Positions 11,438-53,309 of a stretch of 64,000 nt of DNA are shown here, piece by piece. Within the stretch, counting starts at the first letter, position 1, and each line of letters opens with the position of its first letter. The notes beneath the pieces were generated by a model. It was not told the origin of the DNA. It searched no databases and saw only the letters and a program-made list of their open reading frames with translations. The translations under genes were made by a program, and so were the position numbers. The DNA is from Caenispirillum bisanense (GTDB lineage Bacteria; Pseudomonadota; Alphaproteobacteria; Rhodospirillales; UBA2165): the NCBI GenBank assembly GCA_945877815.1, contig CAMDWJ010000004.1, positions 1 through 64,000 on the forward strand, read 5' to 3'.

Positions 11438-12657
11438 GGTGCGATCGCCTTCTCGAACACCGCGAGCATCTCGCGGGCCTGCGTTTCGCGCGAATGATGG
11501 GGTGCCGCGGCGAGCGAGGCGCGGGCGAACCGAGCGAGCGCATCCGCGTCGCCGGCCAGAGTGCGAACCGCCTGGGCGAGTGCCGCAGGCTGCCCCGCCG
11601 GCACGGTCAGGCCGGCGCCGTGGCGCTCGACCAACTCCGTCGCTTCGCCCGTGGGTGCGGCAAACAAGATCGGCAAGCCCATAGCCATCGCCTCGAAAAT
11701 CTTGGACGGAATGACCTCGGCGAAGGCCGGCGAATCCTTGAGGTGGACGAGCGCGACATCGACCACGCTCCAAACCGCGGGCATGGCCTCCTTGGGTTGC
11801 GCAGCCGCGAACACGGCATTCGCGAGGCCACGCGCGCGCGCCGTCTCGATCAACATATCGCGCTCGGCGCCGGCACCGACAAACAGAAACCGGATTCGCG
11901 GATCGTCCTTCAACAATTCGGCGGCATCGAGGACATTGACCAAGCCATGCGCCATGCCGTGGGTGCCGATATAGCCCACGACGAATTTCCCGGCGAGATT
12001 CCAATCGCGTTCGAGCGAGAGATCGCGTGGGCGCGGCGCATAGCGCGGCAGATCGACGCCATTGATGACAACCTCGATTTTGGCAGGATCGATGCCGCGT
12101 TCGACCAAGTTGCGCTTGAAGGCATGCGTCAGGGCCGCGACTCTGGCCGAACGGCGGTAGAGGAATAGCTCGACCTTCTCCACCATGGACAGAGCGAGCC
12201 CTTTCTTCATCGCGCCGACCGCGGAGATCGACAACGGCCACAAATCGCCAAGCTCGAACACGAAGGGTACGCGGCGCAGCGCGCCGACCAGCCAGCCGGC
12301 AACGGCGGCAAAAAATTGCGGCGAGGTCGCGCAGACGATATCGGGACGATCCTCGCGCAATGCGGCGAGCGTGGCGGTCACGCCGTAAGAGACGAAATCG
12401 AGCGTGCGGCGCGCCACGCCGCGATTCAGCGAAATAAATGTCTTCACCCGAACCACGCGGATGCCCGACATTTCCTCGGTTTGGCGCCACGCATTGCGAT
12501 AGCCAGCAAATAGCTTGCCGTGCGGAAAGTTGGGCGCCTGGGTGATGACCGTCACCTGGTGCCCCCAGCTCGCCCAATAGACAGCGCGTTCATAAACGCG
12601 CGTCGCCGCCGCATTGGTTTCGGGCGGAAAATTCTCGCTGAGAAAAAGAATCTTCAC
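11434..12657 (-). CDS. glycosyltransferase family 4, WbuB-like
   Basis: A 407-residue GT-B-fold cytoplasmic glycosyltransferase. The N-terminal SENFPPETNAAATRVYERA and GHQVTVITQAPNFPHG are typical of WbuB-like N-acetylfucosaminyl/quinovosaminyl transferases. The C-terminal nucleotide-sugar domain has VGYIGTHGMAHGL, FVGAGAERDML and the acidic region SKIFEAMAMGLPILFAAP. It probably adds the second sugar to the lipid-linked unit made by the adjacent WecA/WbpL-like protein. It overlaps both neighbours by four bases (ATGA junctions), so the block is one transcript. Sugar specificity is not readable from sequence. Confidence 0.88.
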   Translation of the reverse strand: MKILFLSENFPPETNAAATRVYERAVYWASWGHQVTVITQAPNFPHGKLFAGYRNAWRQTEEMSGIRVVRVKTFISLNRGVARRTLDFVSYGVTATLAALREDRPDIVCATSPQFFAAVAGWLVGALRRVPFVFELGDLWPLSISAVGAMKKGLALSMVEKVELFLYRRSARVAALTHAFKRNLVERGIDPAKIEVVINGVDLPRYAPRPRDLSLERDWNLAGKFVVGYIGTHGMAHGLVNVLDAAELLKDDPRIRFLFVGAGAERDMLIETARARGLANAVFAAAQPKEAMPAVWSVVDVALVHLKDSPAFAEVIPSKIFEAMAMGLPILFAAPTGEATELVERHGAGLTVPAGQPAALAQAVRTLAGDADALARFARASLAAAPHHSRETQAREMLAVFEKAIAP

Positions 12658-13655
12658 GGCCGCACCGCCCGGCCCCGAAGAATGAGCAGCAGCACGCCGG
12701 TGAGCATCGCCGCGCCAACGAGAGCCATCATCACATTAAAAAGCGATGCCACGGCCAGCGCGATGAACAGGCCATTGGCGATGGCGATCAGCGCCGCGAC
12801 ATAACCGTGCGACAGCCCGCGCGCAACGGCACGCTGATAAAAATGCTGGCGATGGGCCTGCCATATCTTTTCGCCGCGACTCAGACGTTTGATCAGGGTC
12901 AATGTCGCGTCGGCGAGATAATAGATCGGTAGGATCAGGGCCGCCGCCCAATAGCCCGCCGCCGCGAGTTCAAGCAGGAACCAGCCCAACAACAGGCCCA
13001 AAGGCACGCTTCCCGAATCGCCGAGAAAGATTTTCGCCGGATGCCAATTGAAAACAAGAAAGCCAAAGGCAACACCGACGAGAACACCGGCAGGCAATGC
13101 GAGACCTACAAGAGCTGGGACAAATGCGGCCATGGTGATCACGCCGAGTCCGATTCCCGCCGTCTCGACCCCGCTGATACCGTCGATCCCATCCATGAAG
13201 TTGAACAGGTTGATGAACCAGACCCAAGCCAGACCGGCGGCGAGGCGATCCGCCCACGACGGCAGCCATCCCTGAAAGTAAAGAAGCTCGCTCGGCTGTC
13301 GAGACAACAAAACGGCGACGACGATCACGTGAAATCCAAAACGCACTAACGGCGAGAGGCCGATCAGATCGTCGATCCACGACAAAGCGCAGAGCAGCAG
13401 CGCGCCCATCGCGATCCAGATCAAAGCATCGTTCTGTCCATTGCCCGCCATAACCGCGATTGCGATCCAAAGCCCTGCGGCAATCGGCACCATCGCCAGG
13501 CCGGCGCCACGCGGTGTGGGCGCGGTATGCGAGGATCGCTCGTTGGGACGGTCTAGAATATTCGTCCGCCGCAGCACCGGAATCAGAAACCGGACGGCTG
13601 CGGCAGATAACATAATGGACACGATCAGACAGACGAAAAGAGCAATCCAATTCAT
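12654..13655 (-). CDS. polyprenyl-phosphate N-acetylhexosamine-1-phosphate transferase, WecA/WbpL-like
   Basis: A 333-residue integral membrane protein of the MraY/WecA family with about ten spans. It transfers HexNAc-1-phosphate from UDP to undecaprenyl phosphate, the first step of Wzy- or ABC-dependent glycan assembly. Key motifs are present: RSSHTAPTPRGAG near residue 45, the Mg-binding SWIDD pair, NLFNFMDGIDG, FLGDSGSVPLG and the final HRQHFYQRAV (HxxHxxxR-like). The substrate is probably UDP-QuiNAc or FucNAc, given the neighbouring dehydratase and reductase. The ATG overlaps the stop of the upstream methyltransferase (ATGA). The length is normal. Confidence 0.92.
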   Translation of the reverse strand: MNWIALFVCLIVSIMLSAAAVRFLIPVLRRTNILDRPNERSSHTAPTPRGAGLAMVPIAAGLWIAIAVMAGNGQNDALIWIAMGALLLCALSWIDDLIGLSPLVRFGFHVIVVAVLLSRQPSELLYFQGWLPSWADRLAAGLAWVWFINLFNFMDGIDGISGVETAGIGLGVITMAAFVPALVGLALPAGVLVGVAFGFLVFNWHPAKIFLGDSGSVPLGLLLGWFLLELAAAGYWAAALILPIYYLADATLTLIKRLSRGEKIWQAHRQHFYQRAVARGLSHGYVAALIAIANGLFIALAVASLFNVMMALVGAAMLTGVLLLILRGRAVRP

Positions 13656-15394: not shown

Positions 15395-17167
15395 CTAAGC
15401 TGCGACTTGGGCCGAAAAGACATCGCGCGCCCATCCACGCCATCCCAATTCGCGTCCCGACATCCATTGCGGCACCGGCACGAAAAAGCCGGTTTTGGGC
15501 CGCGACAGCACAGCCTCGGGCAACGGTTTGGGTGCAGTCCGCGCCATCCCCTGCTTGTCGCATTCCAGATGGGCGGCGGCCCGATACAGCGTCACATCGA
15601 CGAGCGGTGTACGGATTTCAAGCGAATGGGCCATACCCGCCCAATCGGCATCGCGCAGCAATTGATTGCGCATGTACCAAGCGGTTTCGAGTGCACGGAT
15701 CTTCGCGCGCGGACTTTTATGAGGGTTGGTCGTGGTATCGAGGCGAACCAGCGGATCGAGCGTCCGCCATCCTTCGGCGGCGAAGTCCGGGTCGAGCACC
15801 AATGGCAATTCCCACGGGAGGAAAACCCCGCGTTTCAACAGATAGGCGGAGCCGTAGCCGGTCGCATATTCGAACAGGCTGGCATATTTGGACGACATAA
15901 ATCGTGTAATAGTCGAGCCGGCGACGATGCGAAATCCGCGCCCCATCGTGCCGAGACCGGGGATCCAGCCGATGCCTTCGACCAATTTTGGCAAAGTACG
16001 AAACGTGTCGTAACCGCCAAACAATTCGTCACCTCCGACCCCCGATAGCGCAACCTTCAATCCAACGCTCGCCGCCTCGCGCGCGACGAAATAAGTATTC
16101 ACCCCGTCGATGGTAGGCTGATCCATCGCCGCCATAATTGCCGGTTGTTCCTCGTGAAACGCCGCACCGGTCAAACTGCGTGTCGTATGGTGCGTGCCAT
16201 AATGCGTCGAGAGTGCCGCGGCCAAGGGAGCTTCGTCGCGCGCGCTGCCCGAAAGTTCGGAAAATGCCAAGGTCAGGCTTTGGATGCCGTGATGCGTTTC
16301 GACCGCATGGGCAGCAATCGTCGCCGAATCAAGGCCGGCCGAAAGGAACAATCCAACCGGAACGTCGGAGACCAAATGATGACGTACGCTGTCCGCGATC
16401 GCGGCCGCCAAGACATCTTCGGGATGCCCCGACATTGCTTCGGCGCGTTCGGTCAACGGATCGATCCGCGTTGTTACGTGTACGCCGTCCCGGCCGAACC
16501 ATTCGACGCCGCCCGCTTCGACCGCGCGGATCCCGGCATAGATCGTGTGTGGTTCCGGCACGTAACCGAACAGGAAAAAGCCGACGTGACCGGCGGCATT
16601 GGGCTTATCGGAAATTCGGCCGCCCGCCCGCAGGGCCTTGACCTGGGATGCGACTCGCAAGGTCGAACCATCGTCTGCGACGTAAAGCGGCTTGATGCCA
16701 AAGGGATCGCGCGCCAGCAACAGGCCTTGTTTCAAGCCATCCCAAATCGCGAAGGCATACATGCCACGCAAACGTTCCACCATCCGGGCGCCGTCGCGCT
16801 CGTACAAGTGTAGCAAAACTTCGGTATCCGAGCGCGTACGGAATACGCGCCCTTGCGCTTCCAGTTCACGGCGCAATTCTTGGAAATTGTAAATCTCACC
16901 GTTGTAAGTGATGACTAGGTCGGCGTCGGCCGTTGGCTTCGACGTCGTGCCCAACGGCCCGAGGGCCATCGGTTGAGCACCATCGAGGCCCAGATCTAGG
17001 ATGGCCAATCGGCGATGGCCAAACCCAACCGAGCCGTCGGCCGATGTCCAAAGTCCTTCGCCGTCGGGGCCACGTTTCACCATGGCAGCAGTGATGCGCA
17101 CGAGTTCACTAGCATCAACCCGAGGGGCGTTGAGGCGATAGGCAAAAATAGCGGCCAATCCACACAT
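15395..17167 (-). CDS. asnB: asparagine synthase (glutamine-hydrolysing)
   Basis: A 590-residue AsnB-type amidotransferase. Cys2 (MCGLAAIF) is the glutaminase nucleophile, followed by MVKRGPDGEG, VITYNGEIYNFQELRREL and RSDTEVLLHLYE in the N-terminal domain. The synthetase domain has the ATP-binding SAGLDSATIA loop and SGVGGDELFGGYD. Copies in glycan loci often amidate uronic acids rather than aspartate, which would fit the uronate epimerase and decarboxylase-like genes nearby. The start is fixed by the catalytic Cys2. It lies behind an intrinsic terminator for the upstream unit, so a promoter should lie within 17168-17270. Confidence 0.93.
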   Translation of the reverse strand: MCGLAAIFAYRLNAPRVDASELVRITAAMVKRGPDGEGLWTSADGSVGFGHRRLAILDLGLDGAQPMALGPLGTTSKPTADADLVITYNGEIYNFQELRRELEAQGRVFRTRSDTEVLLHLYERDGARMVERLRGMYAFAIWDGLKQGLLLARDPFGIKPLYVADDGSTLRVASQVKALRAGGRISDKPNAAGHVGFFLFGYVPEPHTIYAGIRAVEAGGVEWFGRDGVHVTTRIDPLTERAEAMSGHPEDVLAAAIADSVRHHLVSDVPVGLFLSAGLDSATIAAHAVETHHGIQSLTLAFSELSGSARDEAPLAAALSTHYGTHHTTRSLTGAAFHEEQPAIMAAMDQPTIDGVNTYFVAREAASVGLKVALSGVGGDELFGGYDTFRTLPKLVEGIGWIPGLGTMGRGFRIVAGSTITRFMSSKYASLFEYATGYGSAYLLKRGVFLPWELPLVLDPDFAAEGWRTLDPLVRLDTTTNPHKSPRAKIRALETAWYMRNQLLRDADWAGMAHSLEIRTPLVDVTLYRAAAHLECDKQGMARTAPKPLPEAVLSRPKTGFFVPVPQWMSGRELGWRGWARDVFSAQVAA

Positions 17168-17329: not shown

Positions 17330-18211
17330 TCAGAGCATGACTGTTTTTCGGCATGCAATACTTTTCTGGCAGGCAGCAAGGACCTCGATGACGGATAATC
17401 CCGCGTCGAGACCGGATCGCAATACATGGCCCGACCGGATGGATTCGACGAAGGAAAAGATCACTCTTGTCAAAGGTAAATCCGGGGAAATGGAAATCAC
17501 CTTAGAATCAGATCGCAATTTTTCCGGGACGGTGTCGTCATAAATAACGATCTTATCGCTGCAGTCGACCGACAGAGAGCGAATTCGACGATCCAAGCCG
17601 TTGCAGACATCGATGGTCGCGCTGACGCCATTTGCGTAACCAAACATCAACCGGACACGCTCACCACCGCCGGCCGGTTCGGAATATCCACGGACCGATG
17701 TCGGCTTTGCGTTCATAAGATCGAGGATCATCGCGACGTCGTGCGCACCCCAGTCCCATAAGACCGATGCATCTGAACGGACGGGTCCACGATTACCGGC
17801 CTCGGCTCGAATGGATTTAACGGTATCGGGTCCGCCGAGCGTGCCGACAATCGCTTTCAACCCTTCGTAAGCCGGATGAAATAAATGTGTATGATCGACC
17901 ATCGCCGGAACATCAGCCCGCTCGAAATGCTCGGCAAGGTCCCGCGCCTCCGTCAAATCGAGTGTCATTGGTTTTTCGATCAGCACCGGGATGCGGCGTT
18001 CAAGTGCAGCGCGCGCCAATACCGCGTGGCTGGACGGCGGGGTCGCGACGATGAGACCATCTAAGTTATCGCGATCGAGGTCCGTCGGCACAAAAGATGA
18101 ATTGTAGGTCGCCGCAAACGTCACATCCGGCAGTGTTGCGAGGGTACGAATATAGGCTTGGCCCCAACGGCCCGTGCCGACAAGTCCGATCCTAAAAGGC
18201 GAATTCGGCAT
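17330..18211 (-). CDS. Gfo/Idh/MocA family oxidoreductase
   Basis: A 293-residue NAD(P)-dependent sugar oxidoreductase, rather short for a family usually 330-380 residues long. The N-terminal Rossmann motif is IGLVGTGRWGQAY at residues 8-20 and the family signature EKP is in VLIEKPMTLD. The central domain has SDASVLWDWGAHDVAMILDL, matching the usual substrate-domain histidine region. It is the last gene of the minus-strand unit starting at kdsB and is followed by a clear terminator. It lies 22 bases after the epimerase gene and probably oxidises or reduces a nucleotide sugar made within the same unit. The substrate is unknown. Confidence 0.85.
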   Translation of the reverse strand: MPNSPFRIGLVGTGRWGQAYIRTLATLPDVTFAATYNSSFVPTDLDRDNLDGLIVATPPSSHAVLARAALERRIPVLIEKPMTLDLTEARDLAEHFERADVPAMVDHTHLFHPAYEGLKAIVGTLGGPDTVKSIRAEAGNRGPVRSDASVLWDWGAHDVAMILDLMNAKPTSVRGYSEPAGGGERVRLMFGYANGVSATIDVCNGLDRRIRSLSVDCSDKIVIYDDTVPEKLRSDSKVISISPDLPLTRVIFSFVESIRSGHVLRSGLDAGLSVIEVLAACQKSIACRKTVML

Positions 18212-18233: not shown

Positions 18234-19286
18234 TCAGTTCGTGCCTTTATAGGTCGCGAGTGCCCAGTCCATGAATCGCTTCAGCCCGTCGTCGAGATCG
18301 ACCTTGGGTTCGAATTCTAGCTGGAGGCGCGCCTTGCGAATATCGGGGCTTCGCCGCATCGGTTCATCCGCCGGATAGCTGTCCGGATATTCGATCAAGT
18401 TATACGGGACGGCACGCCCGACGGCAGCACCCAGGGCTTCGACCAACCCAACCATTGAAATTTCCGGGCGCGGATTGCCAATATTATAGGTCTCGCCCGG
18501 AACACCTTTGAGAACTACGAGCAGAAACCCCACAAGCGCATCCGTGATGTAGCAGAACGTCCGGGTTTGGACTCCCGACCCATAAACGTTGAGCGGCTGC
18601 CCTGCCTTGATGCGACTCGCAAAGTTGGGAAGCACACGATAGTCGGCTTCGCCCATGCCCGGACCATAGACATTGAAAGGCCGGATGATCGTCGTCGCCG
18701 TGCCGAACTTCGTATGAAAAATATAGCTGAGCGTCTCGCCGACGCGCTTGCTTTCGTCGTAACAGGCGCGCGGGCCCTGGCTCGCCACATTGCCGCGATA
18801 GCTTTCCTGCATCGGAACATGCTTTGCGTCGGGATCGCCATAGATCTCTGACGACGAAAAGAACGTGAAGCGCGCGCCTTTGGCTTCCGCAAGCGTCAAC
18901 ATGTTGCGCGTGCCATTGATGGCAACGTCGAGGGTCTCAAGCGGATAGGCCCGGTAGTAAAACGGACTTGCAATGCCTGCTGCATGGATGACGTAGTCGA
19001 CGGGACCCGGATGGTCATAGGGCTGAATAACGTCGTGTGCGACGAAGCTCATATGATCGTGGTTCATCGGTGGCGCATGTCGCGACGTGATGAGGTTGTC
19101 GAGTGCGATGACCGTGACAGGCTTTTTCAACATGCCTTTGTTCAGACCGGCGAAGACTTCGACGAAGTAGCGCCCAAGAAACCCACGGCCGCCGGTGATC
19201 AATACCGTCTTGCCCGCAAAGAGCTGCGCACTATCGCCGAGGCGGGTAATGACCTCGCCAATATCGCTTGGAAGCATATCTTGCAT
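18234..19286 (-). CDS. NAD-dependent nucleotide-sugar epimerase/decarboxylase, UXS-like
   Basis: A 350-residue short-chain dehydrogenase with LITGGRGFLGRYFVEVF near residue 30, SSSEIYGDPD, the active-site YDESKRVGETL, and RPFNVYGPGM. The active-site context resembles UDP-glucuronate decarboxylase and dTDP-glucose 4,6-dehydratase relatives, so it may act on a UDP-uronate. Starting at ATG 19286 leaves two bases after the upstream stop (TGATCATG), a tight coupling; the longer frame would need a TTG. It precedes the Gfo/Idh oxidoreductase, and the pair likely acts in sequence on one sugar. The precise reaction is unresolved. Confidence 0.85.
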   Translation of the reverse strand: MQDMLPSDIGEVITRLGDSAQLFAGKTVLITGGRGFLGRYFVEVFAGLNKGMLKKPVTVIALDNLITSRHAPPMNHDHMSFVAHDVIQPYDHPGPVDYVIHAAGIASPFYYRAYPLETLDVAINGTRNMLTLAEAKGARFTFFSSSEIYGDPDAKHVPMQESYRGNVASQGPRACYDESKRVGETLSYIFHTKFGTATTIIRPFNVYGPGMGEADYRVLPNFASRIKAGQPLNVYGSGVQTRTFCYITDALVGFLLVVLKGVPGETYNIGNPRPEISMVGLVEALGAAVGRAVPYNLIEYPDSYPADEPMRRSPDIRKARLQLEFEPKVDLDDGLKRFMDWALATYKGTN

Positions 19287-19288
19287 GA

Positions 19289-20533
19289 TCAAACGATCCT
19301 CAATTCGGGCAAGGGAACGATAAAATGCCCCCCCTTATCCAGATATTCGCGATGATTGGCAATAATCGCATCGGCAAAGTTCCATGCGAGGACAACCATG
19401 TAATCCGGCCGTACGCCCGCGGATTTCGCCCAAGCGACGACCGGGACATGTTTGCCGGGGGTAAACAGACCTTGCTTCAAGGGGCTGTCGTCCACAATAT
19501 AATCAACAACGTCGCCGCCAAGCCCGAAGCGGTACATGAGAGTCGTCGCTTTTGCCGGGGCACCGAAAGCCGCTATGCGTTTCCCCTCGGATTTGAGCTT
19601 GCTCAGCAACTTTGTTAGTTCCTTGCCCAAGTGATCAATGCGGACCGAGAATTCCGTCCAGCTGGCAATCTGGTCAAGCCCGGCCGCATGCTCCGCCCCG
19701 ATCAACGCGGCAACCGAACCATCGGATTTCTGCGGACCGCCGGCACGTTGGACATAACCGCGGAGAGAACCGCCGTGTGTGTTGACGCGTCGCGCCGAAA
19801 ACAGATCAAGCCCGTGCGCGGCAAAGAACCGAACCAGGGGCGCTAGCGTGTGATAATCGAGATGCTCGTGGTAGATGGTATCGAACAGCACGTTCGCATG
19901 CACATCGGCCGCATAAGACACCTCAAACACGAAGACACCGTCGGGCGCCAACAGGTCGCGGATACAGTCGGCCAGACCCGCGAGGTCGTCCACATGGGCA
20001 AAAACATTATTGGCCGTTATAATCGCCGCCGGTCCTTTTTCGCTGAGGACGCGCCGGGCGATATCGGCGTCGAGGAATTCGGGCCAAGTCTCCAATCCAC
20101 GGGCGGTCGCCTCGGCGGCGATCTTTTGCGCAGGATCAACGCCCAGCACCGACATGCCGGCCGCCTTGAAAAATTGCAGCAGAGTTCCGTCGTTGGATCC
20201 GATGTCCATCGCCAGTGCTCCGATGGGTGGCGTGAACCGTGCAATGCAATCTTCCGCGTAGGCCTCAAAATGCCTTACGAAAGACGGCGACGTGCCCGAC
20301 ACATAAACGTAGTCCCGGAACAATATCTCGGGATCAACGACGTCAAGTAGCTGCAGATGCCCGCAAGATTCGCAAAAATAGACGTCGAGAGGATAACATG
20401 TCTGTGGCTCGTCCAGTTTATCGAACGAAACGAACGCGTTCGCCGGTGGGGTCGGCGGCAATTCGAGGACAAGCGCGAGGCGGGCGGCATCGCACAGACG
20501 ACAAGTCGTTCTATGATGGAAATCGCTACTCAC
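19289..20533 (-). CDS. NDP-sugar C-methyltransferase, TylCIII/NovU-like
   Basis: This protein of about 414 residues has three parts: an N-terminal zinc-binding domain with CRLC (Cys11, Cys14) and CESC (Cys54, Cys57), a SAM-binding domain (AMDIGSNDGTLLQFF), and a C-terminal domain beginning near IAAFGAPAKATTLMYRFG. This order is typical of C-3 methyltransferases that make branched deoxysugars on 4-keto nucleotide sugars. I chose GTG at 20533, four bases past the upstream stop. A TTG at 20581 would overlap the glycosyltransferase. It implies a branched or C-methylated sugar in the glycan. The family is well supported; the substrate is not known. Confidence 0.86.
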   Translation of the reverse strand: MSSDFHHRTTCRLCDAARLALVLELPPTPPANAFVSFDKLDEPQTCYPLDVYFCESCGHLQLLDVVDPEILFRDYVYVSGTSPSFVRHFEAYAEDCIARFTPPIGALAMDIGSNDGTLLQFFKAAGMSVLGVDPAQKIAAEATARGLETWPEFLDADIARRVLSEKGPAAIITANNVFAHVDDLAGLADCIRDLLAPDGVFVFEVSYAADVHANVLFDTIYHEHLDYHTLAPLVRFFAAHGLDLFSARRVNTHGGSLRGYVQRAGGPQKSDGSVAALIGAEHAAGLDQIASWTEFSVRIDHLGKELTKLLSKLKSEGKRIAAFGAPAKATTLMYRFGLGGDVVDYIVDDSPLKQGLFTPGKHVPVVAWAKSAGVRPDYMVVLAWNFADAIIANHREYLDKGGHFIVPLPELRIV

Positions 20534-20537
20534 GCAA

Positions 20538-21263
20538 TTACGCCCCAAAACGCTCGCGGAAGATACGAGCGACAACCGCAAAAACGTGATGCCATTTTAT
20601 CTTCTTGCCTTCGGCATAGCTTCGCCCGTGATAGGTGATCGGCGTTTCGTAGATCGTCGTGCTTCGAAGGACGGCTTTCGCCAAAATCTCCGCGTGCTGG
20701 TCCCATCCAAACGCACGCAACTTATGCGGATCGACCAGGGATCGACGATACAGAAGATAGCAGCTGTAGATGTCGGTAAAGGTGGTGTTATAGAGCATAT
20801 TGAAAAGCAAAGTGATGCAGTGGTTGGCCAGCTTGTGCCAGAAATAGTGAACCCGCGTATAGGCCGGCGCAATGAACCGGCTGCCGATGATGATATCGGC
20901 ATTGAATTTAGCAACCGGGAACAATAGGCCTCGATAATCTTTTGGATCGTACTCCAAGTCCGCATCCTGGAAGAGAACATAATCGCCGCTTGCCACCTTC
21001 AGACCGGCAATGACGGCAGCCCCCTTGCCTGCATTGCATTCCATCGTCACGAGGCGGGAATAGAGATGCGGATTTTTCTTGAGCAAGGCGCCCGTATCGT
21101 CGGTCGAACCGTCGTCGACCACAACCACCTCAAACGTGAAACCCTCAATACGCTGCTCGTTGACGATTCCCAGCAACGTGATGATGGTTGCCGACTCATT
21201 ATAAGCCGGCACGATAACGCTCACCGTCACAGCAGACGCATTAGGATTTGAATTAGGCATCAT
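20538..21263 (-). CDS. glycosyltransferase family 2, DPM1-like
   Basis: A 241-residue GT-A transferase with SVIVPAYNESATI, VVVVDDGSTDDTG, GKGAAVIAGLKVASGDYVLFQDADLEYDP and a GSRF segment. This organisation is that of dolichol/polyprenyl-phosphate mannosyl or glucosyl transferases without membrane spans. It would make a polyprenyl-phosphate-linked sugar that a GT-C membrane enzyme can use outside the cytoplasm, which suits the large multi-span proteins encoded nearby. The ATG at 21263 overlaps the stop of the upstream fusion gene (ATGA). The length is normal for the soluble form. Confidence 0.87.
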   Translation of the reverse strand: MMPNSNPNASAVTVSVIVPAYNESATIITLLGIVNEQRIEGFTFEVVVVDDGSTDDTGALLKKNPHLYSRLVTMECNAGKGAAVIAGLKVASGDYVLFQDADLEYDPKDYRGLLFPVAKFNADIIIGSRFIAPAYTRVHYFWHKLANHCITLLFNMLYNTTFTDIYSCYLLYRRSLVDPHKLRAFGWDQHAEILAKAVLRSTTIYETPITYHGRSYAEGKKIKWHHVFAVVARIFRERFGA

Positions 21264-23440
21264 GCGGCAGAGTTCGAGTCGCGGGTCACCCTCTTTGCCG
21301 GCGCTTGCGCCCCCATGGACGACGAGGGGAAGAAAAAGTTACGGGCGATCTTCGCCCATGACTTGCCGTCATAAAGCATGTTCATGGGCGGGGCGCACAT
21401 CCATTCACAATTGCATTTGGTATCGACAATCTCGGTGCGGTGAATGGCATCGATATCGATCGCGCGCTTCATACGATAATAGTCGAAGTCGTGATCTCGG
21501 ATATTGGCCATCGGGCGAGCCGCCAAGACTTCGCATGGGGCGAACGTGCCGTCGTCGTACAGGGTCACGAACTTTTGCGTGGCGACACAAGGCCGGATAA
21601 ATTCCTTAAATTTCTTGATCCGGCGCGTATCTTCGTAGGTCACCGATTGCAGCGCCCTGACCGCGCGCGCCCACAGACCGTCGGGCTTGCGCGCCAGTTC
21701 TTCCGCATCGTTGCGGCTGATAAAATCGACGAAATCGTCTGCGAGATGCGCATTGTCGTCGGAGATCAAAACGCCGTCCTGGCGAAACAGGTAGAAAAAA
21801 TGTTGATCGAAATCGATCTCCTTGCGCATGAACGAGCGGATTGAATCGACCTTGTCGAGATTAAATGTATCGTAGGGCGTATTCACCTGAACCCGCAGAT
21901 TCGGGTAGTAGCGCCGCAGCGTGGAGAGCGCTCGGCCGGTTGCTAGCATTGCCTCGAAGCCGCCGGAGATCTTGCGCGACTTGTCGTGATCGCCATGCAG
22001 AGAATCGACGCTGAACTGAATTGTCAGGAACAGGCGAGGGCATCGCACCAGAATGTCGCGCACACCTTCGACGACACGTTTCGTCAAGGCACCATTGGTC
22101 GGAATCGTAACCCAACGCGTGTGGCAATTCTTGTAGAAGGCTTCGATGACCTCGGCCACGTCGAGGCGCGCAAACGGTTCGCCGCCGGACATCGTAAGAT
22201 ACGGGAGACGTTGGAAATTCGTCGTCAGCTTACGTACTTCATCGAGACTCAGTTCGACTTTCTGCCGTTCGCGCCAATTGACCACGTTTTCCAGATTGAA
22301 GCAGAACGAACAGCGCGCATTGCATTTCGATGTGACAAAATAGAAAAGCTTCGAAATGCGTCCGGGCCGCCAGAAATGAAGGACGGATAAAACGACATCG
22401 ACCAATTGACCTACGCGCTCGGCGAACCAGATACCGAACCCGCGAAAGGTGCCGAGCACCCAGCAGGCGCTACGTAGGCTCAGCAGGACCCGGATACCCA
22501 GATTTTCAGCAAGTGCAATACTGCGGCCGTAGGGCGCGTTTTTATTCGCGCGGATATAGACGAAGAATTTGGCGGCGAGGTTGAAGTGAAGCACTCCGGC
22601 AACCACGGCACCGCCGATAAATGGGGCGGCAACAGACGGTACGGCGAACGCTGCAATCAACAGAAGCGGAACGGCCCAAAGCGCCACGGTCGACCAGAAC
22701 AGCCGCCAGCCACCGAAAAAGCCGAACACGTTGTCTTGACCGACCAAACCATGGCATCGGCCGATCACGCGTGTCGTCGCCCGCGTGATATTGCGCCGGA
22801 TAAACTGCGGAAGGTCGTTCTTCGGCTGATGATAAACGATGAGATCGGGATCGAAGAGGGTCGGGCTCATGGCTCGTATTTCGTTTGCAACAACGGTGTC
22901 TTCGGTGGATGCCACACGCGCGAAATGAATCAATTCACGGCCCGAGCGCGCGGCGTCCCAAATCTGCTTGCGGACGGCCATGTTTCCGCCCGTCAGCGCA
23001 CTCGAATGCGGCATACTGGAAAAAAAATCGTGACCGAATTCTTCCTCGAGTTTTCCGAACAGCGCAACAAGCGTCGGTGCCTCGCGATGGACATATCGCC
23101 CTCCGACCGCACCGAGCTTGGGATCGGCCTCAAAATGTCCGCTCAGGCGTTCGATCCATTCGGGCTGAGGGACACAATCGGAATCGGTGAACGCGATGAT
23201 ATCGCCCTTGGCCGCGCGCACGCCATCGACGCGCGCGATGCCGGCGCCGCCCTGCTGTGCTCGCCCGACGACCCGCACCCCGGCAAATGACCGCGCGACA
23301 TCGCCAGAACCATCGGTTGAACCATCATCGACGACAATAACCTCATACGGAGCAACCGTCTGGCATGCCAAAGCCGCCAGCGTCGCACCCAGCGAAGTTG
23401 CCGAATTGAACGTAGGTATAACGACAGAAATTTTGGTCAT
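21260..23440 (-). CDS. fusion: GT2 glycosyltransferase + membrane region + radical SAM domain
   Basis: A 726-residue protein with two unrelated enzymatic halves. Residues 1 to about 230 form a GT2 domain (KISVVIPTFNSATSL, VIVVDDGSTDGSG, FTDSDCVPQPEW, TGGNMAVRKQIWD). About 245-300 is hydrophobic and probably membrane-associated. From about 365 onward is a radical SAM domain with the cluster motif Cys373-x3-Cys377-x2-Cys380 (CNARCSFC) and MSGGEPF. A cysteine-rich SPASM-like tail follows (CVATQKF, FAPCEV, CNCEWMCAPP). No stop or frame change lies between the halves. Start ATG 23440 begins directly at the GT2 domain; a double ATG at 23476-23479 adds 12-13 residues. Its function is unknown; it could add and then chemically modify a sugar. 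Confidence 0.85.
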   Translation of the reverse strand: MTKISVVIPTFNSATSLGATLAALACQTVAPYEVIVVDDGSTDGSGDVARSFAGVRVVGRAQQGGAGIARVDGVRAAKGDIIAFTDSDCVPQPEWIERLSGHFEADPKLGAVGGRYVHREAPTLVALFGKLEEEFGHDFFSSMPHSSALTGGNMAVRKQIWDAARSGRELIHFARVASTEDTVVANEIRAMSPTLFDPDLIVYHQPKNDLPQFIRRNITRATTRVIGRCHGLVGQDNVFGFFGGWRLFWSTVALWAVPLLLIAAFAVPSVAAPFIGGAVVAGVLHFNLAAKFFVYIRANKNAPYGRSIALAENLGIRVLLSLRSACWVLGTFRGFGIWFAERVGQLVDVVLSVLHFWRPGRISKLFYFVTSKCNARCSFCFNLENVVNWRERQKVELSLDEVRKLTTNFQRLPYLTMSGGEPFARLDVAEVIEAFYKNCHTRWVTIPTNGALTKRVVEGVRDILVRCPRLFLTIQFSVDSLHGDHDKSRKISGGFEAMLATGRALSTLRRYYPNLRVQVNTPYDTFNLDKVDSIRSFMRKEIDFDQHFFYLFRQDGVLISDDNAHLADDFVDFISRNDAEELARKPDGLWARAVRALQSVTYEDTRRIKKFKEFIRPCVATQKFVTLYDDGTFAPCEVLAARPMANIRDHDFDYYRMKRAIDIDAIHRTEIVDTKCNCEWMCAPPMNMLYDGKSWAKIARNFFFPSSSMGAQAPAKRVTRDSNSAA

Positions 23441-23548
23441 GATGAGTTCAGGTGCCGCGCCAGTTGCATCCAACATCATAGGGGGCGGTCGAGCGAGACC
23501 TTATTAACAGGTGGGTTGCCGAACACAAGCGACTTTGGCCCCTAACCG

Positions 23549-25474
23549 TCAATTCATGGCGGGGCATAGCGGTCTCACGACGTTGTAGATCACCAGAGGC
23601 GTTTCATTCGCCGCCGGCATGCGCAACGTGCGCGACCCCATCCGCAGAGACCGAAAATCCTGGATCGGCCGCAAACATCCGATTTCGGTCAACCGTATGG
23701 ACAATATCGACAAGGTGCTTGGATCCGGGTCGGCCAAATCGGGCTCAGCGAGCGCAACTACATGTGTTATGCCCTGAATTTTGATCTGCTGGGCAAATTT
23801 TATAAGGTCTTGATTATGGATCTGCAAATCTACAGCCGCTTGCTTGTAAGGTTGTGCAATAAATATTGGAGTATTGACCAAATAATTGTACCATCTAAAT
23901 TCGGTAATTACTTTTGAGTTCTGATCGAGATGTTTATTGATCCATGCGATTGGTTCGTAAAATGGGACCATTTGTGCGTAATACGCCTCGCGCGACTGCC
24001 CAGACATTAAATGCCGCGCCGAGCCAATAGTGAAGAGAGCATGCCCGGCCAGTTGGATCGCCACAGTCAACACGGCCGCTAGAACCACCGCAGGGCTGGC
24101 CCGGCGGGGCACCGCCCAACGCTCGGCTGCCACAACGCAAGCGATCAGGACAAGCGGCAGGACGGGGAGAAGGTGCCGGATCCGTTGAGATATGCCGCTG
24201 AAGAACCAAAGGACATAAAACAACCCGGCGATCGCCAAGTAGATCGACGCGTCGCTCGAGCGAATAGAACCACGGCGGAGCCACAGGCCCGCAAGCGCGA
24301 ACGGCCCGATCAGCAGCAGCAACGGCCCGAACCCGGTTCGCCCCGATTCAAAGATCGGCAAGCCGTTGATGGTCGCCTTGAGCGGATAGGCGACGAGCCA
24401 GAACAACGATGCGGGCACTCCCGTCTCGTATTGAAAGATCGACTTGAATGCCGCTTGGCTTTCATGAGTCCATATCCCGACTTGAGGCCGTCCAAGAAGA
24501 ACGAATAGCGCGGGGAAAAACGGATCGCCTGTGTGGATCCAATTCCATGCGTACCATTGAAACCCCGCTAACAGTGCGCAGCCGCCGAAAACCGTGCCGC
24601 GCATGAACCAACGACGATCGAACAGAACGATCAGTCCAGCCGCCGCGACAAGCGCGAGGCCAAAATATTTCCCGGCGGCGCAAAATCCGGAACACAGACC
24701 CGCCACCGCGATCAATGCGAGATCAGCACGAGTCCCCCTGACCTTGTTGGCGAGCGCGATGGCGATCGCAGCACCCACGGCGAACAGCGCTGCGCGCATT
24801 TCGACTTGACCCGACCCCGCCCCATAGACGACGGCTGGAGTCGTGGCAAAAATCAATGCGATCGTCAGCGACCAAGGCCGATCCAATAATCGCCGCGCGG
24901 CGCCATAGACCAGCGCCACGGCAAACCAGCCGCTCACGAACACCCAAAGAGTCATCGCCCGTTCGCCGCCCAATGCGAACGCGGGAAGATATGTAAGCTG
25001 AACCAGCAGCGGAACGGCGCCATCGACCGCGACGGGAACAAAATCGATGCCGCCGTTTGCGACGAACATTTTCGGGATCGCAAAATGGTAGGTGAGCGAG
25101 TCCGCATCAGCCGGCGGAGTCAGCCCTTCGATAAAATCGAAGACGATCGCCACAAGTAGGACCGCGACAATCGCGATCTCGATATGCGACAACGATGCGC
25201 GATCGGCGGGCGGAGAGACTGGCCCAAACGCTGGCAAGGTTGCCAGCCCAGCGCAACCGGCCAACATCAACACGATGAGAGGCACTGTCCCGAGCCAACC
25301 AACGACGCCCATCGGAAAAAGCAACCAACCCAAGATACCCGAGCCTATCGCGAAGGCGATGACGGAGGCGCGATCAAGCGGCAAAACACGATGCAGGCTC
25401 ATGGCACGAAGCAACGCCGCGCCGTATCCGATACAGGCGAACACCTGAACAACGACAACCAGCAGGGCAGTCAT
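23549..25474 (-). CDS. large multi-span membrane protein, GT-C-like
   Basis: A 641-residue inner-membrane protein with roughly a dozen hydrophobic spans. After the first spans lies a loop with TPPADADSLTYH near residue 122, placed like the catalytic acidic loop of GT-C glycosyltransferases. A QRIRHLLPVLPL segment follows near residue 430, then a soluble C-terminal tail. The protein encoded at 29816-31786 on the other strand has matching segments. It may transfer a sugar from a polyprenyl phosphate donor in the periplasm, which is inference only. The ATG at 25474 overlaps the upstream GT2 stop (ATGA); the longer open frame upstream is antisense noise. Confidence 0.75.
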   Translation of the reverse strand: MTALLVVVVQVFACIGYGAALLRAMSLHRVLPLDRASVIAFAIGSGILGWLLFPMGVVGWLGTVPLIVLMLAGCAGLATLPAFGPVSPPADRASLSHIEIAIVAVLLVAIVFDFIEGLTPPADADSLTYHFAIPKMFVANGGIDFVPVAVDGAVPLLVQLTYLPAFALGGERAMTLWVFVSGWFAVALVYGAARRLLDRPWSLTIALIFATTPAVVYGAGSGQVEMRAALFAVGAAIAIALANKVRGTRADLALIAVAGLCSGFCAAGKYFGLALVAAAGLIVLFDRRWFMRGTVFGGCALLAGFQWYAWNWIHTGDPFFPALFVLLGRPQVGIWTHESQAAFKSIFQYETGVPASLFWLVAYPLKATINGLPIFESGRTGFGPLLLLIGPFALAGLWLRRGSIRSSDASIYLAIAGLFYVLWFFSGISQRIRHLLPVLPLVLIACVVAAERWAVPRRASPAVVLAAVLTVAIQLAGHALFTIGSARHLMSGQSREAYYAQMVPFYEPIAWINKHLDQNSKVITEFRWYNYLVNTPIFIAQPYKQAAVDLQIHNQDLIKFAQQIKIQGITHVVALAEPDLADPDPSTLSILSIRLTEIGCLRPIQDFRSLRMGSRTLRMPAANETPLVIYNVVRPLCPAMN

Positions 25475-26484
25475 GAAGGCGACAAGACGTTTATGATGGG
25501 GGCGACAAGATCGCGAAATTGATAGAGATAGGCCACCATCGCAATACACACCCAAATCAGACCGACAACCAACCAGCTCGGAATCGTCGCCCGACAAGTA
25601 AGTATCGTCGCACGCGCGAATGTGAACGGGAAGCGAAGCACAGTGGACACAACATCAGCGAACTGGCCTCGGCCCCAATGGGCCCTAACCGCCTCTACGT
25701 GGACTGCGGCGATGCGAAACCATAGCCCCCGCAACGGCGAGGCCCCATGCCGCGCCAATGACGGCGCGTGACGAATAGCGATTTCCATCGTGCTATCGAG
25801 CCGTCTGCGGGTATGGCTCGTAATACTGCCACCGACGATGTGAAAACGCGTTAGTGGCGTTTCGAAGACCGCAAATCGCGCCTCGGCACGATCCAGGAGC
25901 CGCAGCCACAAATCGAAATCCTGTCCGGTCCCCAACGTTTCGTCGAAACCGCCAACCTGCATGACCGCATCGCGGCGGGCGACCACCGAACTCGTCCCGA
26001 GAAAGCCGCGCCGATACAATCCGTCATATAGGCGAGGATGCGCCGCGTGGAACCGTCGGGTGCAATCGAGATAGGTTTCGGTTTTGCCATCGACGATCCA
26101 ACCGTTGTGGCCGATCAAAACGAAGTCGTCACCAACCAACCAGGACATGCAATTGGCTAGTTTTTCCGGCAACCATTCATCGTCAGCATCGAGAAAGGCA
26201 ACGTATTCGCTGCGAGCTTCGGCGAGAGCGCGATTGCGGGCGGCGCCGGCACCCAAGTTGGATTGCCGCACCACGCGGATCGAGATGCCTTCGATTTTCC
26301 GCGCGACCTGCTCGGCCACATCGGGCGTTCCATCCGTCGATCCATCGTCGACAACGATCACGTCGTGCGGGCGAAGGGTCTGGCCGGCAATACTGCGCAG
26401 AGCCCGGCTAATCGTCGCCGAAGCATTGAACGCCGGTATTATCACGCTTACCGGGGCGAGCGGATCGTGATCGTCGATTGCCAT
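25471..26484 (-). CDS. glycosyltransferase family 2
   Basis: A 337-residue GT2 protein with VSVIIPAFNASATISRAL, DVIVVDDGSTDGT, GAGAARNRALAEARSEYVAF, LDADDEWLP at the metal-binding position and GTGQDFDLWLRL. A C-terminal hydrophobic segment near residues 305-325 may anchor it to the inner membrane. The ATG at 26484 lies inside the tail of the upstream heparinase-like gene (37-base overlap). The N-terminus begins only about ten residues before the conserved motif, so this start is reasonable. It probably acts in the same glycan-assembly unit as kdsB. Donor and acceptor are unknown. Confidence 0.88.
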   Translation of the reverse strand: MAIDDHDPLAPVSVIIPAFNASATISRALRSIAGQTLRPHDVIVVDDGSTDGTPDVAEQVARKIEGISIRVVRQSNLGAGAARNRALAEARSEYVAFLDADDEWLPEKLANCMSWLVGDDFVLIGHNGWIVDGKTETYLDCTRRFHAAHPRLYDGLYRRGFLGTSSVVARRDAVMQVGGFDETLGTGQDFDLWLRLLDRAEARFAVFETPLTRFHIVGGSITSHTRRRLDSTMEIAIRHAPSLARHGASPLRGLWFRIAAVHVEAVRAHWGRGQFADVVSTVLRFPFTFARATILTCRATIPSWLVVGLIWVCIAMVAYLYQFRDLVAPIINVLSPS

Positions 26485-47439: not shown

Positions 47440-49179
47440 TCAGCAAGTTTGGGCGGTTTTCGGCTGTCCGACAGGCGACAGGCCCATCTGGCGACGGACA
47501 ACATCATATCCGACGGATATGTCCAAATTCATCCGACGGCGGAAATCGTCGAACGGATAGGACGTGGGATCGTTTAGAACGGATCCAACGGCAGCAACAA
47601 GCGCTTCAGCGCTACGGATACACAAACCCGGGAACTCACGATAAACACAGTAATCCTGGTCAACTAAATCCGCCACGTAGGTCGGTATTCCGAGATGTAT
47701 GCCTTCCGAGACGATCGTTGAGATATCGCTAACCATACAGGCAGCCAGAGACATTAGGTCATAAATCGACCGATCGGTGCTGACGACGTTGGGGCATGCA
47801 ACGGTCAAGGCTTCCACGATGGCTACGCGGTCGCCTTTAGCCAAAAATTCGACAGATTTGATTTGCACCACGATGGATCGATCCGGGAAAGCACGCGATA
47901 GCATATGAACCATACGATGGTATTCGGGTTCGCCGAAAGCGATCCGCATAGCAACTAGAACAACATCTCCACGTGGCCACCCGGCGTTGATCATATCCCG
48001 GGGAAAGCCAAAGGATCCCACAGAATGAGCGGCCATGTCATTCGGCCAGCGCGATCGAAAAGTCTCAAAAAGCCCCGTTCCGATACAATAATAGTGATCA
48101 AAACTGATATAGCGCGCATTGGGAGCAATCCGAGCGTAAGCGGTGTAGATCCCACCGCTCCATCCATGAGAGACTCCTCCAATTCGATGAAGTTCACTAC
48201 GACGCAAGATATGATCCGGGTTGTATTCGTCCCGTCCCAGATAATGCTTCGTACGATATTGAGTGAAAAGCGCCCGCCATTTTGCGCGCTTCAAAGGCAA
48301 CATTATGATTGCGATAAAGTGTGCGAGAGATATCGTGCGGTGACATCGCCATAAGCGAAAGATATCTCGCGCCGACTCACCCAGGATCACGAATCCATCG
48401 ACTATACCGAAATATCCCTCGCCCCATCGGCAACGTTCATAGGCATCGACGTTCCATTCTCCGGCCGCGCCGGGTGTTCTACGATCCAAAATTACGACAG
48501 ATCCACCGTCGTGCAGCTCTTCCAGCACGTTATGCTCAACCTTATTGCCGAGCGCATCTAACATACAAAAGATACTGCGGCCTGATCGCAAGGGGCGGAT
48601 TCGCTTGACAATCTCCAGCCACGACCACGCGAGCGCACCGCCCGCGATTAACAGATTAGATAAAGCACGCTGGAGACGATAAGCTGGTCGCGCCGAAATT
48701 GCGCGCTCCGCGAAGCTACCCCGATACATGTCGATCGTATCGCTGGGAATTCCAACCGGATCCAATCTATCGCCAGGAAATACGTGCGCGAGTGCATCGA
48801 TAGCATATATGTCGAACACCTGGTCATAGGTGAAATTACAGGTAACGGCCTTAAAGGCGTGGTGAAGCAACGAGTCGTAGATTTTCACATCGCCGAAACC
48901 ATATTTACGCTCTTGCCAAGGTTCGATACGTGAAAAAGCTTCGCAAAAATATAGCTGGCGCGACCATTTCACGTAAGGTGCGAGCTCCGGTGCCATCTCG
49001 ACAACGTTGCATGCCCGGCCACTCGATCGCGCCCAAATCGAGAGGCGCTCAAGCAGGCGCCAAGAGCGCACAAAAATCGGTCTCAGAGAAACGATGACAA
49101 CATCGCGCCGCAACAGGCAGTCAATCGCAAAGCGTACGATCGTCACCTCGTTCAACGAATAAAGGCGGAAAGTTCTCAA
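47440..49179 (-). CDS. unrecognised protein, probable GT-B-like surface-glycan transferase
   Basis: A 579-residue protein with no clear family. The C-terminal third has RSIVVQIKSVEF, STDRSIYDLMSLAACMVSDISTIVSEGIHLGIPTYVADL, a pattern shared with the protein at 38159 and with polysialic acid/CDP-glycerol-type transferases (SxxSEGxxxGxPTY). The middle region is basic with hydrophobic stretches. It overlaps the ABC transporter by four bases and is probably translated with it. It is visibly richer in A and T than most neighbours, consistent with a foreign origin. A glycan role is inferred from context only. Confidence 0.6.
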   Translation of the reverse strand: MRTFRLYSLNEVTIVRFAIDCLLRRDVVIVSLRPIFVRSWRLLERLSIWARSSGRACNVVEMAPELAPYVKWSRQLYFCEAFSRIEPWQERKYGFGDVKIYDSLLHHAFKAVTCNFTYDQVFDIYAIDALAHVFPGDRLDPVGIPSDTIDMYRGSFAERAISARPAYRLQRALSNLLIAGGALAWSWLEIVKRIRPLRSGRSIFCMLDALGNKVEHNVLEELHDGGSVVILDRRTPGAAGEWNVDAYERCRWGEGYFGIVDGFVILGESARDIFRLWRCHRTISLAHFIAIIMLPLKRAKWRALFTQYRTKHYLGRDEYNPDHILRRSELHRIGGVSHGWSGGIYTAYARIAPNARYISFDHYYCIGTGLFETFRSRWPNDMAAHSVGSFGFPRDMINAGWPRGDVVLVAMRIAFGEPEYHRMVHMLSRAFPDRSIVVQIKSVEFLAKGDRVAIVEALTVACPNVVSTDRSIYDLMSLAACMVSDISTIVSEGIHLGIPTYVADLVDQDYCVYREFPGLCIRSAEALVAAVGSVLNDPTSYPFDDFRRRMNLDISVGYDVVRRQMGLSPVGQPKTAQTC

Positions 49180-50975
49180 TCCTGAGCCGCCAACGCACTC
49201 AAATCCACAAGTCGGCGGAAATCTTGATTGGTCGCGCTCAATTCATCGAACGTCCCGATTTCGGCGACGCGTCCTTGCTTCATGAGCACAATCCGATCGC
49301 ATTTGCGCACGGTGCTTAAGCGATGCGCAATGATCAGGATGGTCTTCTTCCCTGCCAAAGCCGTAATTGCTTGGTTGATTTCAAATTCGGTTTCGTTGTC
49401 AAGCGCCGCCGTCGCTTCGTCGAAAACGAGGACGTCCGGATCGCGATAGAGCGCTCGCGCGATCGCAATGCGTTGCTGCTGCCCCCCGGAGAGACGCGAA
49501 CCGAATTCGCCTAGCTTACTTTCGAGCCCGTTAGGTAGCTTGGCAACGACGTCGTTCAAACGGGCAAGATCCAGTACATAAGCAATACGTGCATCGTCGA
49601 TTTCTTCGTCACGTAAGCCGAAGGCGACATTCCGTCGCAGCGTATCGTCGATCAAAAACAGATGCTGCGGAACGAATCCGATGTGTTTCTGCCATCCTTC
49701 GACATTGCCGTTAATATCGTGACCGTCAACTAATATCCGGCCACTTTCGGGCGCCAACAGTCCAAGGACAATATTGAGGAGCGTCGTCTTTCCTGCGCCT
49801 GACGGGCCAACGAAACCGATCGATTGGCCCTTGTGAATCGAAACGGATATCCCACTCAAAATCTGTGGTCCCGACGGCGAATAGGAAAAGGTCACGTTCT
49901 CGAGTCGCAGATCGCGCTCGTACGGGATATCACCGCCGATGCCGGTGCCGCTTGCCTGATAGTCGCGTTCGCCGTCCATGAAGTCACGGTAGAGATCGTC
50001 AACCGCCGCGGTTCGTAGTTTCAATTCAGAGATCGATGTCAGAAGGCGGTTGGCGGATGGCATGAGCCGAAGCGACGCCATGCCGAATAGGCTAAGCGTT
50101 GCCAGGGTGTCCTCGATACGGCCGGCCCCATGGGATAGATAGAGTATGACCGCGACAAACCCGACGATGATCAACGATTCGATCACCAGACGCGGGATAT
50201 GACGCGCCATGTCTCCATTTATTTTGTAATGCACGAGATCGTCGGTCAGCTTGGCAAACGATTCTTTGAGGAAGTCATAACAATTGAGCAACTTGACATC
50301 GCGGATACTGGTCAATGCCTGACCGATTGACTTAATGATAACACGCTCTATTGCGTGACCCCGGGCCCCCCATTCTTGGAAGACCGGCGACGAAATCCGA
50401 TGGAATGCCATACCGAACAGAGCAAGGAGCGCTCCGGCGAGAATCGTCATCGTCGGTTCGACAAACAACAGAAGCAGCAACGTGGCCGTGATGAGAATGG
50501 TTTCAAGAACGATCATCATCAAGAGTCGCAATCCATCGAACGCATAGCTTATGCTTTGGTTCAGATTGCGCATCGTCTCCGAGCTGTGCCGCTGCAGATG
50601 AAACATAAAAGGACGATGCAAATAAAGATCGAACATGTGCTGAGCAAACTTAGCCAATTTGCGCCCAATGACCATATTGATCAGGTAGGTTATTACGAAC
50701 AGCACGATATTCTTGATCACAAACACCGCGCCGAATATGACCGCGATCCAGGTCAGCAGTTCGAGTGACGTCGCATCGGGTAGGAACGGGTCAAGATAGC
50801 GGATGAGCGTCCCTGAACCATCGCGCGTCGTAAGGACATTCATCAGCGGCAAAATGAGGCCAATGCTGAGCATTTCCAGCACCGCCGTCGCCAGCATCGG
50901 CACCAACAATAAAAGCAATGGCAGGCGCGATCGCCGATCCAGGAAGCCAACGATTTTCCGCGCGGTCGTCCACAT
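49176..50975 (-). CDS. ABC transporter, fused permease and ATP-binding protein (lipid-sugar exporter-like)
   Basis: A 599-residue half-transporter. The N-terminal membrane domain has about six spans (residues 1-320). The ATP-binding domain carries Walker A GPSGAGKTTLL near residue 390, the signature LSGGQQQRIAIARAL near 495, Walker B VLVFDEATAALD and the switch histidine in IIAHRLSTV. It resembles MsbA/PglK exporters that flip lipid-linked sugars across the inner membrane. The TGATG junction with the cytidylyltransferase gene places it in the same transcript as the nonulosonate genes. The cargo is most likely a lipid-linked oligosaccharide; this is inferred. Confidence 0.9.
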   Translation of the reverse strand: MWTTARKIVGFLDRRSRLPLLLLLVPMLATAVLEMLSIGLILPLMNVLTTRDGSGTLIRYLDPFLPDATSLELLTWIAVIFGAVFVIKNIVLFVITYLINMVIGRKLAKFAQHMFDLYLHRPFMFHLQRHSSETMRNLNQSISYAFDGLRLLMMIVLETILITATLLLLLFVEPTMTILAGALLALFGMAFHRISSPVFQEWGARGHAIERVIIKSIGQALTSIRDVKLLNCYDFLKESFAKLTDDLVHYKINGDMARHIPRLVIESLIIVGFVAVILYLSHGAGRIEDTLATLSLFGMASLRLMPSANRLLTSISELKLRTAAVDDLYRDFMDGERDYQASGTGIGGDIPYERDLRLENVTFSYSPSGPQILSGISVSIHKGQSIGFVGPSGAGKTTLLNIVLGLLAPESGRILVDGHDINGNVEGWQKHIGFVPQHLFLIDDTLRRNVAFGLRDEEIDDARIAYVLDLARLNDVVAKLPNGLESKLGEFGSRLSGGQQQRIAIARALYRDPDVLVFDEATAALDNETEFEINQAITALAGKKTILIIAHRLSTVRKCDRIVLMKQGRVAEIGTFDELSATNQDFRRLVDLSALAAQD

Positions 50976-53308: not shown

Positions 53309-53309
53309 C

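Follow-up and report, generated by a model that had tools for sequence, protein, structure and literature searches.

A glycosyltransferase-radical SAM fusion gene in a glycan island of Caenispirillum bisanense and its possible role in surface-sugar assembly

The window analysed here, a stretch of 64,000 nucleotides from Caenispirillum bisanense (GenBank assembly GCA_945877815.1, contig CAMDWJ010000004.1, positions 1 to 64,000), contains a gene at 21260..23479 in which a family 2 glycosyltransferase (GT2) and a radical S-adenosylmethionine (SAM) enzyme share one open frame of 739 codons on the minus strand, where all the window features given below also lie. This gene is the fused form of a glycosyltransferase-coupled radical SAM family that reaches no NCBIfam cut-off among the models listed. 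Judged from its sequence, and held at about even confidence, the product would be a membrane-attached surface-glycan enzyme with two activities, the GT2 half adding a sugar and the radical SAM half oxidising or epimerising a residue on the lipid-linked glycan. A wider proposal, put forward more tentatively, is that a membrane enzyme with both functions in one chain adds a carrier-linked sugar and then reworks it by radicals, so providing surface polysaccharides with sugars beyond the reach of nucleotide-sugar chemistry, and that the partnership became a fusion several times. No description of such a fusion was found in the titles and abstract beginnings of the open PubMed Central (PMC) papers listed by searches aimed at it or at radical SAM and glycosyltransferase genes in glycan clusters, which leaves print elsewhere uncovered.

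An earlier note on this DNA, made from the letters alone, had described an uninterrupted frame with GT2 motifs, hydrophobic spans and a radical SAM core, and scans of open reading frames (ORFs), Pfam domains and motifs confirmed the description, including two of the three Pfam assignments that it proposed to check, PF00535 and PF04055, both above their curated cut-offs. The GT2 catalytic domain (residues 18-170, 22970..23428; PF00535, E 9.7e-34) scores 117 bits vs a cut-off of 23.3, and the motifs of this half are VVIPTFN at residue 19, DDGSTDG at 51, TDSD at 98 and TEDT at 192. In GT2 enzymes DXD is a metal motif and ED an acidic pair; here DSD occupies residues 99-101 inside the PF00535 domain and the ED pair residues 193-194 beyond the domain end. 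The radical SAM core (residues 381-518, 21926..22339; PF04055, E 1.4e-11) scores 45 bits vs 29.5 and bears CNARCSFC at 386, with the CX3CX2C cysteines at Cys 386/390/393, and GGEP at 432, so that by domain and motifs this half is a predicted [4Fe-4S]-binding, SAM-cleaving enzyme. These three cysteines and the GGE are kept in all 47 rows of a radical SAM alignment built from the same rows as the tree described below. The earlier note had the cysteine motif right and its numbering (373/377/380) 13 residues too low, because it counted from Met14, an alternative later start at 23440 that would give 726 codons.

Between the two halves lie two strong hydrophobic spans (residues 265-283 and 291-309, together 22553..22687) and two weaker ones (residues 327-345 and 349-367), as seen in a Kyte-Doolittle scan of 19 residues. 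The fusion protein is thus probably membrane-attached, and with two strong and two weak stretches the number of spans would probably be even, leaving both halves facing the cytoplasm. That an assembly or sequencing artefact has joined two genes is extremely improbable, given that the G+C content at third codon positions varies little through the frame (0.53-0.75 in stretches of 40 codons) and that the same domain order recurs in one frame in six other genomes. The fusion is present once in its own genome, where the remaining matches span one half only. For a PurH-like protein of the window, the nine best matches in a plasmid collection (62-66 % identity) bear alphaproteobacterial organism names.

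The tail of the protein carries cysteines 631, 649, 689, 691 and 695 (21395..21589), arranged like those of an auxiliary cluster as C-x12-G-x4-C ... C-x-C-x3-C, an order similar to that in the initial portion of SPASM and Twitch domains. The first four are kept in 47/47 rows of the alignment and Cys695 in 45/47, and all five align across the six radical SAM halves from which the search profile A1 was made. The SPASM-like tail proposed earlier is therefore upheld as five aligned, conserved cysteines and not as a domain match, as the Pfam scan gave no PF13186 (SPASM) match in the fusion protein. Among 16 relatives scanned, PF13186 was above cut-off in five (two from L043, and L046, L092 and L114), just below it in two (L044 and L045) and without a match in nine. 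A SPASM domain has seven cysteines and two auxiliary clusters, vs the five of this tail, which suffice for one cluster. The same scan of the fusion protein gave no match to PF02310, the B12-binding domain.

Profile A1 was used to search 385 genomes of the class (six with matches at E 1e-25, the window's own genome and the locus L054 included), 398 genomes of the phylum (19 with matches at E 1e-40, own genome included) and 297 genomes of the order (18 with matches at E 1e-40, own genome included). The family set comprises the distinct radical SAM matches of at least 140 bits in those loci together with a plasmid relative, L100, which gives 51 members: the plasmid one and 50 others, the window included, that come from 40 genomes of the phylum to which the window belongs. 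Two lower-scoring matches, L054 (103 bits) and a second match of L094 (71 bits), were omitted. Seven of the 51 are single-frame GT2-radical SAM fusions from seven genomes (the window, G031, G082, G537, G950, G921 and G986), and in every one the GT2 domain precedes the radical SAM domain and both Pfam domains exceed their cut-offs. A further 39 members are split pairs, with a GT2 domain on the same strand within 0.4 kb of the radical SAM domain, downstream of it in 32 and upstream in seven. Twelve of these pairs (L062-L073) have GT2 profile scores of only 15-35 bits, and Pfam confirmed GT2 in the three that were checked.

The collection of homologues called for earlier thus shows that the fusion recurs and that the halves are otherwise mostly neighbours. 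The statement that known families keep these functions in separate proteins was too strong in view of the fusions in six other genomes, and it is weakened further by known glycosyltransferase/radical SAM pairs that work on one product, HpnI with HpnJ (PMC12583986) and the mycofactocin pair (PMC3023750). The earlier note would have counted homologues with halves always separate in the genus as contrary evidence; G001, the only further genome searched from this genus, contains no match to the radical SAM profile at E 1e-40. Another genome of the same taxonomic family, G012, has a split pair. A 707-aa frame in L046 was considered as a further fusion and rejected, being a GT2 frame that merely stays open across a radical SAM gene in another frame, and the locus is counted as split. 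G031 has three GT2-radical SAM units, one fused and two split, and 38 radical SAM matches in a genome of 2.7 Mb. A single-protein search of genome contigs gave five loci whose listed matches begin in the GT2 part; in the two whose ORFs were inspected, there are GT2 genes and no radical SAM partner of the fusion's family.

The closeness of the two functions was compared with a background made of all PF04055 and PF00535 matches listed in three genomes, which contain 77 radical SAM matches above cut-off. A same-strand GT2 lies within 1.3 kb of 5/5 family members (two of them fusions) vs 4/72 other matches (Fisher p 6e-6), in a small sample where four of the five family members (the window and three from G031) had also served as rows of the profile, the G031 rows having been chosen by radical SAM similarity and not by neighbourhood. 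At 2 kb the count among the other matches is 5/72. Furthermore, the distances between radical SAM halves and between their GT2 partners are correlated (r 0.88, 46 pairs), and remain so after thinning at 45 % identity (r 0.43, 18 pairs), with none of 2000 permutations as high in either case, so that the partners have travelled together.

The fusion probably arose more than once. On a tree of 47 rows, comprising 43 of the 51 family members, L054 and three viral-contig rows, and omitting eight of the 12 related rows of L062-L073, the fused state requires at least five changes, of which the starred branches alone force only one; the fusions of G031, G082 and G950 form a starred clade. In an approximately unbiased (AU) test on 41 rows, from which six further rows had been dropped, placing all seven fusions in a single clade costs 78 log units (p 1e-8), a value to be read with the window row in mind, which is a long branch of the kind that can mislead the test. 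The radical SAM half of the window is indeed distant from its relatives, with a best identity of 31 % over tree columns and 32 % by BLASTP. With no family match in G001 and a split pair in G012, the spread is patchy, as would fit surface-glycan islands that move between lineages.

It could be argued that the fusion does nothing except join operon neighbours, with halves acting on different molecules and contact between them playing no role. Split pairs greatly outnumber fusions (39 vs 7), and the usual order of their genes is opposite to that of the fusion, as this explanation would allow. We nevertheless regard it as very unlikely, as a single origin of the fusions is rejected, yet all seven have GT2 then radical SAM, and the GT2 and radical SAM partners diverge in step.

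Beyond the window's phylum, the association is looser. A second profile, A2, with 18 rows, was searched against 395 genomes belonging to the same phylum as a record titled Ignavibacteria (three with matches at E 1e-40) and 387 belonging to that of a record titled Verrucomicrobia (12 with matches at E 1e-40). The 17 loci obtained include 15 that score at least 140 bits with A1. Opposite-strand GT2 genes are found in two (L167 and L171), a neighbouring GT4-type gene in four (L160, L162, L163 and L165) and a polysaccharide deacetylase in one (L157). In eight others neither a glycosyltransferase nor a deacetylase was seen, with neighbours scanned by Pfam in two only, L159 and L166, where they are an acyl transferase and a GCV_T protein. 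Weaker relatives on plasmids of Segatella and Pseudobutyrivibrio are set, according to annotation, among glycosyltransferases, with polysaccharide pyruvyl transferases also among the annotated neighbours in Pseudobutyrivibrio. On a Parabacteroides plasmid, the family member L100 forms a two-gene module with a GT1-like gene (7950-10427), beside respiratory and unrelated genes. In two IMG/VR viral contigs (L139 and L140), radical SAM relatives directly adjoin GT2 genes, and L139 has further radical SAM-like genes; a search of phage records with the G031 fusion gave one partial match of 24 %. Glycosyltransferase company is common across these loci, and close pairing with GT2 characterises the family members from the window's phylum.

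The fusion gene sits in a glycan island with the types of initiator and exporter used for lipid-linked glycans. A WecA/MraY-type sugar-1-phosphate transferase (12654..13655; PF00953, E 5.4e-28) is the probable initiator on a polyprenyl carrier, and an MsbA/PglK-type ABC exporter (49176..50975; NCBIfam MsbA 321 bits and PglK 307 bits, neither reaching its cut-off) is a possible flippase for the lipid-linked glycan. Directly downstream of the fusion is a GT2 gene identified by Pfam (20538..21263), whose ATG overlaps the fusion's stop codon (ATGA), followed by genes resembling a sugar C-methyltransferase (19289..20581; PF08421, PF13489 and PF08484) and, by domain and family models, a nicotinamide adenine dinucleotide (NAD)-dependent sugar epimerase/dehydratase (18234..19292), a Gfo/Idh/MocA oxidoreductase (17330..18211) and an asparagine-synthase-type amidotransferase (15395..17167). 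Upstream are a multi-span membrane protein (23549..25597; a weak PMT_2 match below cut-off) and another GT2 gene identified by Pfam (25471..26484). The C-methyltransferase neighbour expected to recur does so in part: the same family occurs within 10 kb of three of the seven fusions (the window, G082 and G921), and in five of 44 neighbourhood stretches, three of which are those fusions. Since the 44 stretches are of unequal length, come in some cases from one genome and had genes under longer antisense frames dropped, such neighbour counts are rough lower counts.

Other genes of the island were recorded in passing. There are two KdsB-like cytidylyltransferase genes (28851-29621 and 43124-43903) and, at 50975-58015, nonulosonic-acid-like genes of the PseF, NeuB/PseI and PseG kinds with an aminotransferase, all below model cut-offs. 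A second radical SAM gene, of Twitch type (35831-37042; NF033640 at 91 bits, below cut-off), lies between aminotransferase and FkbM methyltransferase genes, and a third (45717-47507) resembles the B12-type HpnJ, PhpK and BchE models, again below every cut-off. A family of B12-type radical SAM genes recurs in 10 of the 44 stretches.

In the scheme proposed here, the GT2 half would add a sugar to a glycan growing on its polyprenyl carrier at the cytoplasmic face, and the radical SAM half, held at the same membrane, would cleave SAM and take a hydrogen atom from a C-H bond of the new or a neighbouring sugar. In an oxidation, an electron would leave through an auxiliary iron-sulfur (FeS) cluster. 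In an epimerisation, a hydrogen would be given back on the opposite face, and its donor might be the fifth tail cysteine, as a four-ligand FeS cluster needs one cysteine fewer than the five and the spare one could serve in this way. The glycan would then be exported. The suggestion made earlier that one enzyme oxidises, dehydrates or epimerises a lipid-linked sugar is plausible.

The radical SAM half could instead alter a nucleotide sugar before transfer, in the manner of DesII, with the fusion passing the donor to the GT2 half. DesII, whose substrate is a thymidine diphosphate (TDP)-sugar, is among the fold matches of this half, and genes of the nucleoside diphosphate-sugar type are present in the cluster. 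This alternative seems unlikely to us: a soluble donor needs no membrane anchoring, and some relatives in other phyla adjoin GT4 genes (4/17) or a polysaccharide deacetylase (1/17), neither point being decisive.

Several observations weigh against modification of a lipid-linked sugar by the fusion. The gene order in 32 of the 39 split pairs is the reverse of that in the fusion, and five of the 51 family members have no adjoining GT2 (L058, L061, L087, L092 and L100). Among these five, L061 is separated by one gene from a GT4-type gene, with GT2-like genes at a greater distance, and L087 adjoins a B12-type radical SAM gene and a sugar-epimerase-like gene; the two neighbours of L058 that were scanned are a histidine kinase and an FeS/flavin mononucleotide (FMN) membrane protein, neither of them a glycan gene, and L100 with its GT1-like gene lies away from any evident glycan cluster. 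In the two other phyla, none of the 17 loci has a fusion and only two (L158 and L164) have an adjoining same-strand GT2. The best solved relatives of the radical SAM half by sequence are peptide maturases, namely SkfB and 5wgg, which we take to be the sactipeptide enzyme CteB, and a fold search of this half ranks SkfB first and the sugar enzyme BlsE second, with a model that is weak in the tail. Finally, that the spare fifth cysteine could be the hydrogen donor is a guess. The fold matches list both sugar and peptide enzymes and do not separate them; the model of the radical SAM half made with 11 viral-contig relatives has a good core and a tail largely below a predicted local distance difference test (pLDDT) value of 50, and a single-sequence model of the whole fusion has a mean pLDDT of 39.

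The lead of peptide maturases among the sequence matches raises the prospect of a peptide substrate, matured by the radical SAM half and glycosylated by the GT2 half, on the lines proposed for MftC and MftF of mycofactocin. MftF heads the NCBIfam matches listed for the whole protein, at 95 bits, far below its cut-off of 280, and none of the best 25 of 61 matches of the whole protein is above cut-off; similarly, none of the 25 matches of the radical SAM half at E 1e-6 exceeds its own, and the MftC model gives 28 bits vs a cut-off of 265. The MftA and MftB models were each unmatched in all eight family-bearing genomes searched, with no control genome above cut-off to provide a positive control. 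Identity with the mycofactocin system was accordingly rejected. In addition, nothing precursor-like was recognised among short ORFs common to at least three of 51 loci (L050-L099 and the window) in flanks of about 1.5 kb, in a search that used the first start codon only and would miss a farther or unlike precursor. By eye, the shared groups seem to be antisense to larger genes or fragments of them, and one membrane-like ORF of 85-109 aa occurs in seven loci of one group, on the strand opposite to the radical SAM gene in the four shown. Taken together, these results make action on a peptide distinctly improbable.

An action on the lipid carrier or another membrane lipid is given a similarly low probability. 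The radical SAM half does weakly match a tetraether lipid synthase chain and the Tes and HpnH models, Tes and HpnH being radical SAM enzymes that alter lipids, and the probable membrane attachment of the fusion would suit such a role, but a lipid role alone does not explain the pairing of this family with different glycosyltransferase types.

The adjacency of most relatives of the two halves, together with their apparent fusion on more than one occasion, points to radical chemistry as a means of decorating bacterial surface sugars during their assembly. If the two-activity reading of the fusion is true, some of the diversity among these sugars would arise on the lipid carrier, through radical reactions that follow transfer, and not while they are still nucleotide sugars. 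Both steps would be bound to one polypeptide by the fusion, making substrate and timing directly testable, and a number of genes annotated plainly as 'radical SAM protein' in polysaccharide clusters could gain a testable role.

Known systems resemble the fusion in part. SkfB, SuiB and anSME, which are enzymes acting on peptides, are SPASM/Twitch peptide maturases among the best matches of the radical SAM half; their structure titles name peptide action, whereas the fusion has five conserved tail cysteines and no recognised precursor. BlsE, SpeY, BtrN and DesII, all fold matches of this half that perform radical chemistry on sugars or sugar-like rings, differ from it in sharing only 11-20 % identity. 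Together with AviX12 and NeoN, which are likened to the radical SAM half by description and not by sequence for radical chemistry on the same kinds of ring, they are antibiotic-pathway enzymes without a glycosyltransferase domain. AviX12 is described as a radical enzyme that carries out an epimerisation during the synthesis of oligosaccharides (PMC8234114). A Brachyspira plasmid is reported to have radical SAM, glycosyltransferase and epimerase genes side by side (PMC4267127). Mycofactocin is closer in that a radical SAM gene, MftC, is partnered with a GT2 gene, MftF, and the pair is proposed to act with a peptide (PMC3023750); unlike the fusion, the two belong to separate families.

HpnJ carries a B12-binding domain, and its model (TIGR03471) is absent among the 25 NCBIfam matches of the radical SAM half at E 1e-6; the genes that do match it, in the scans made, are B12-type radical SAM genes of the window and of the relatives' neighbourhoods. 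The HpnI/HpnK/HpnJ system differs from the fusion in having separate genes and a deacetylase step between. It parallels the action proposed for the fusion in that a membrane lipid receives a sugar from a glycosyltransferase and has that sugar remodelled later by a radical SAM enzyme (PMC12583986), and HpnI followed by HpnJ is the strongest precedent, by analogy, for transfer and then radical change on a lipid.

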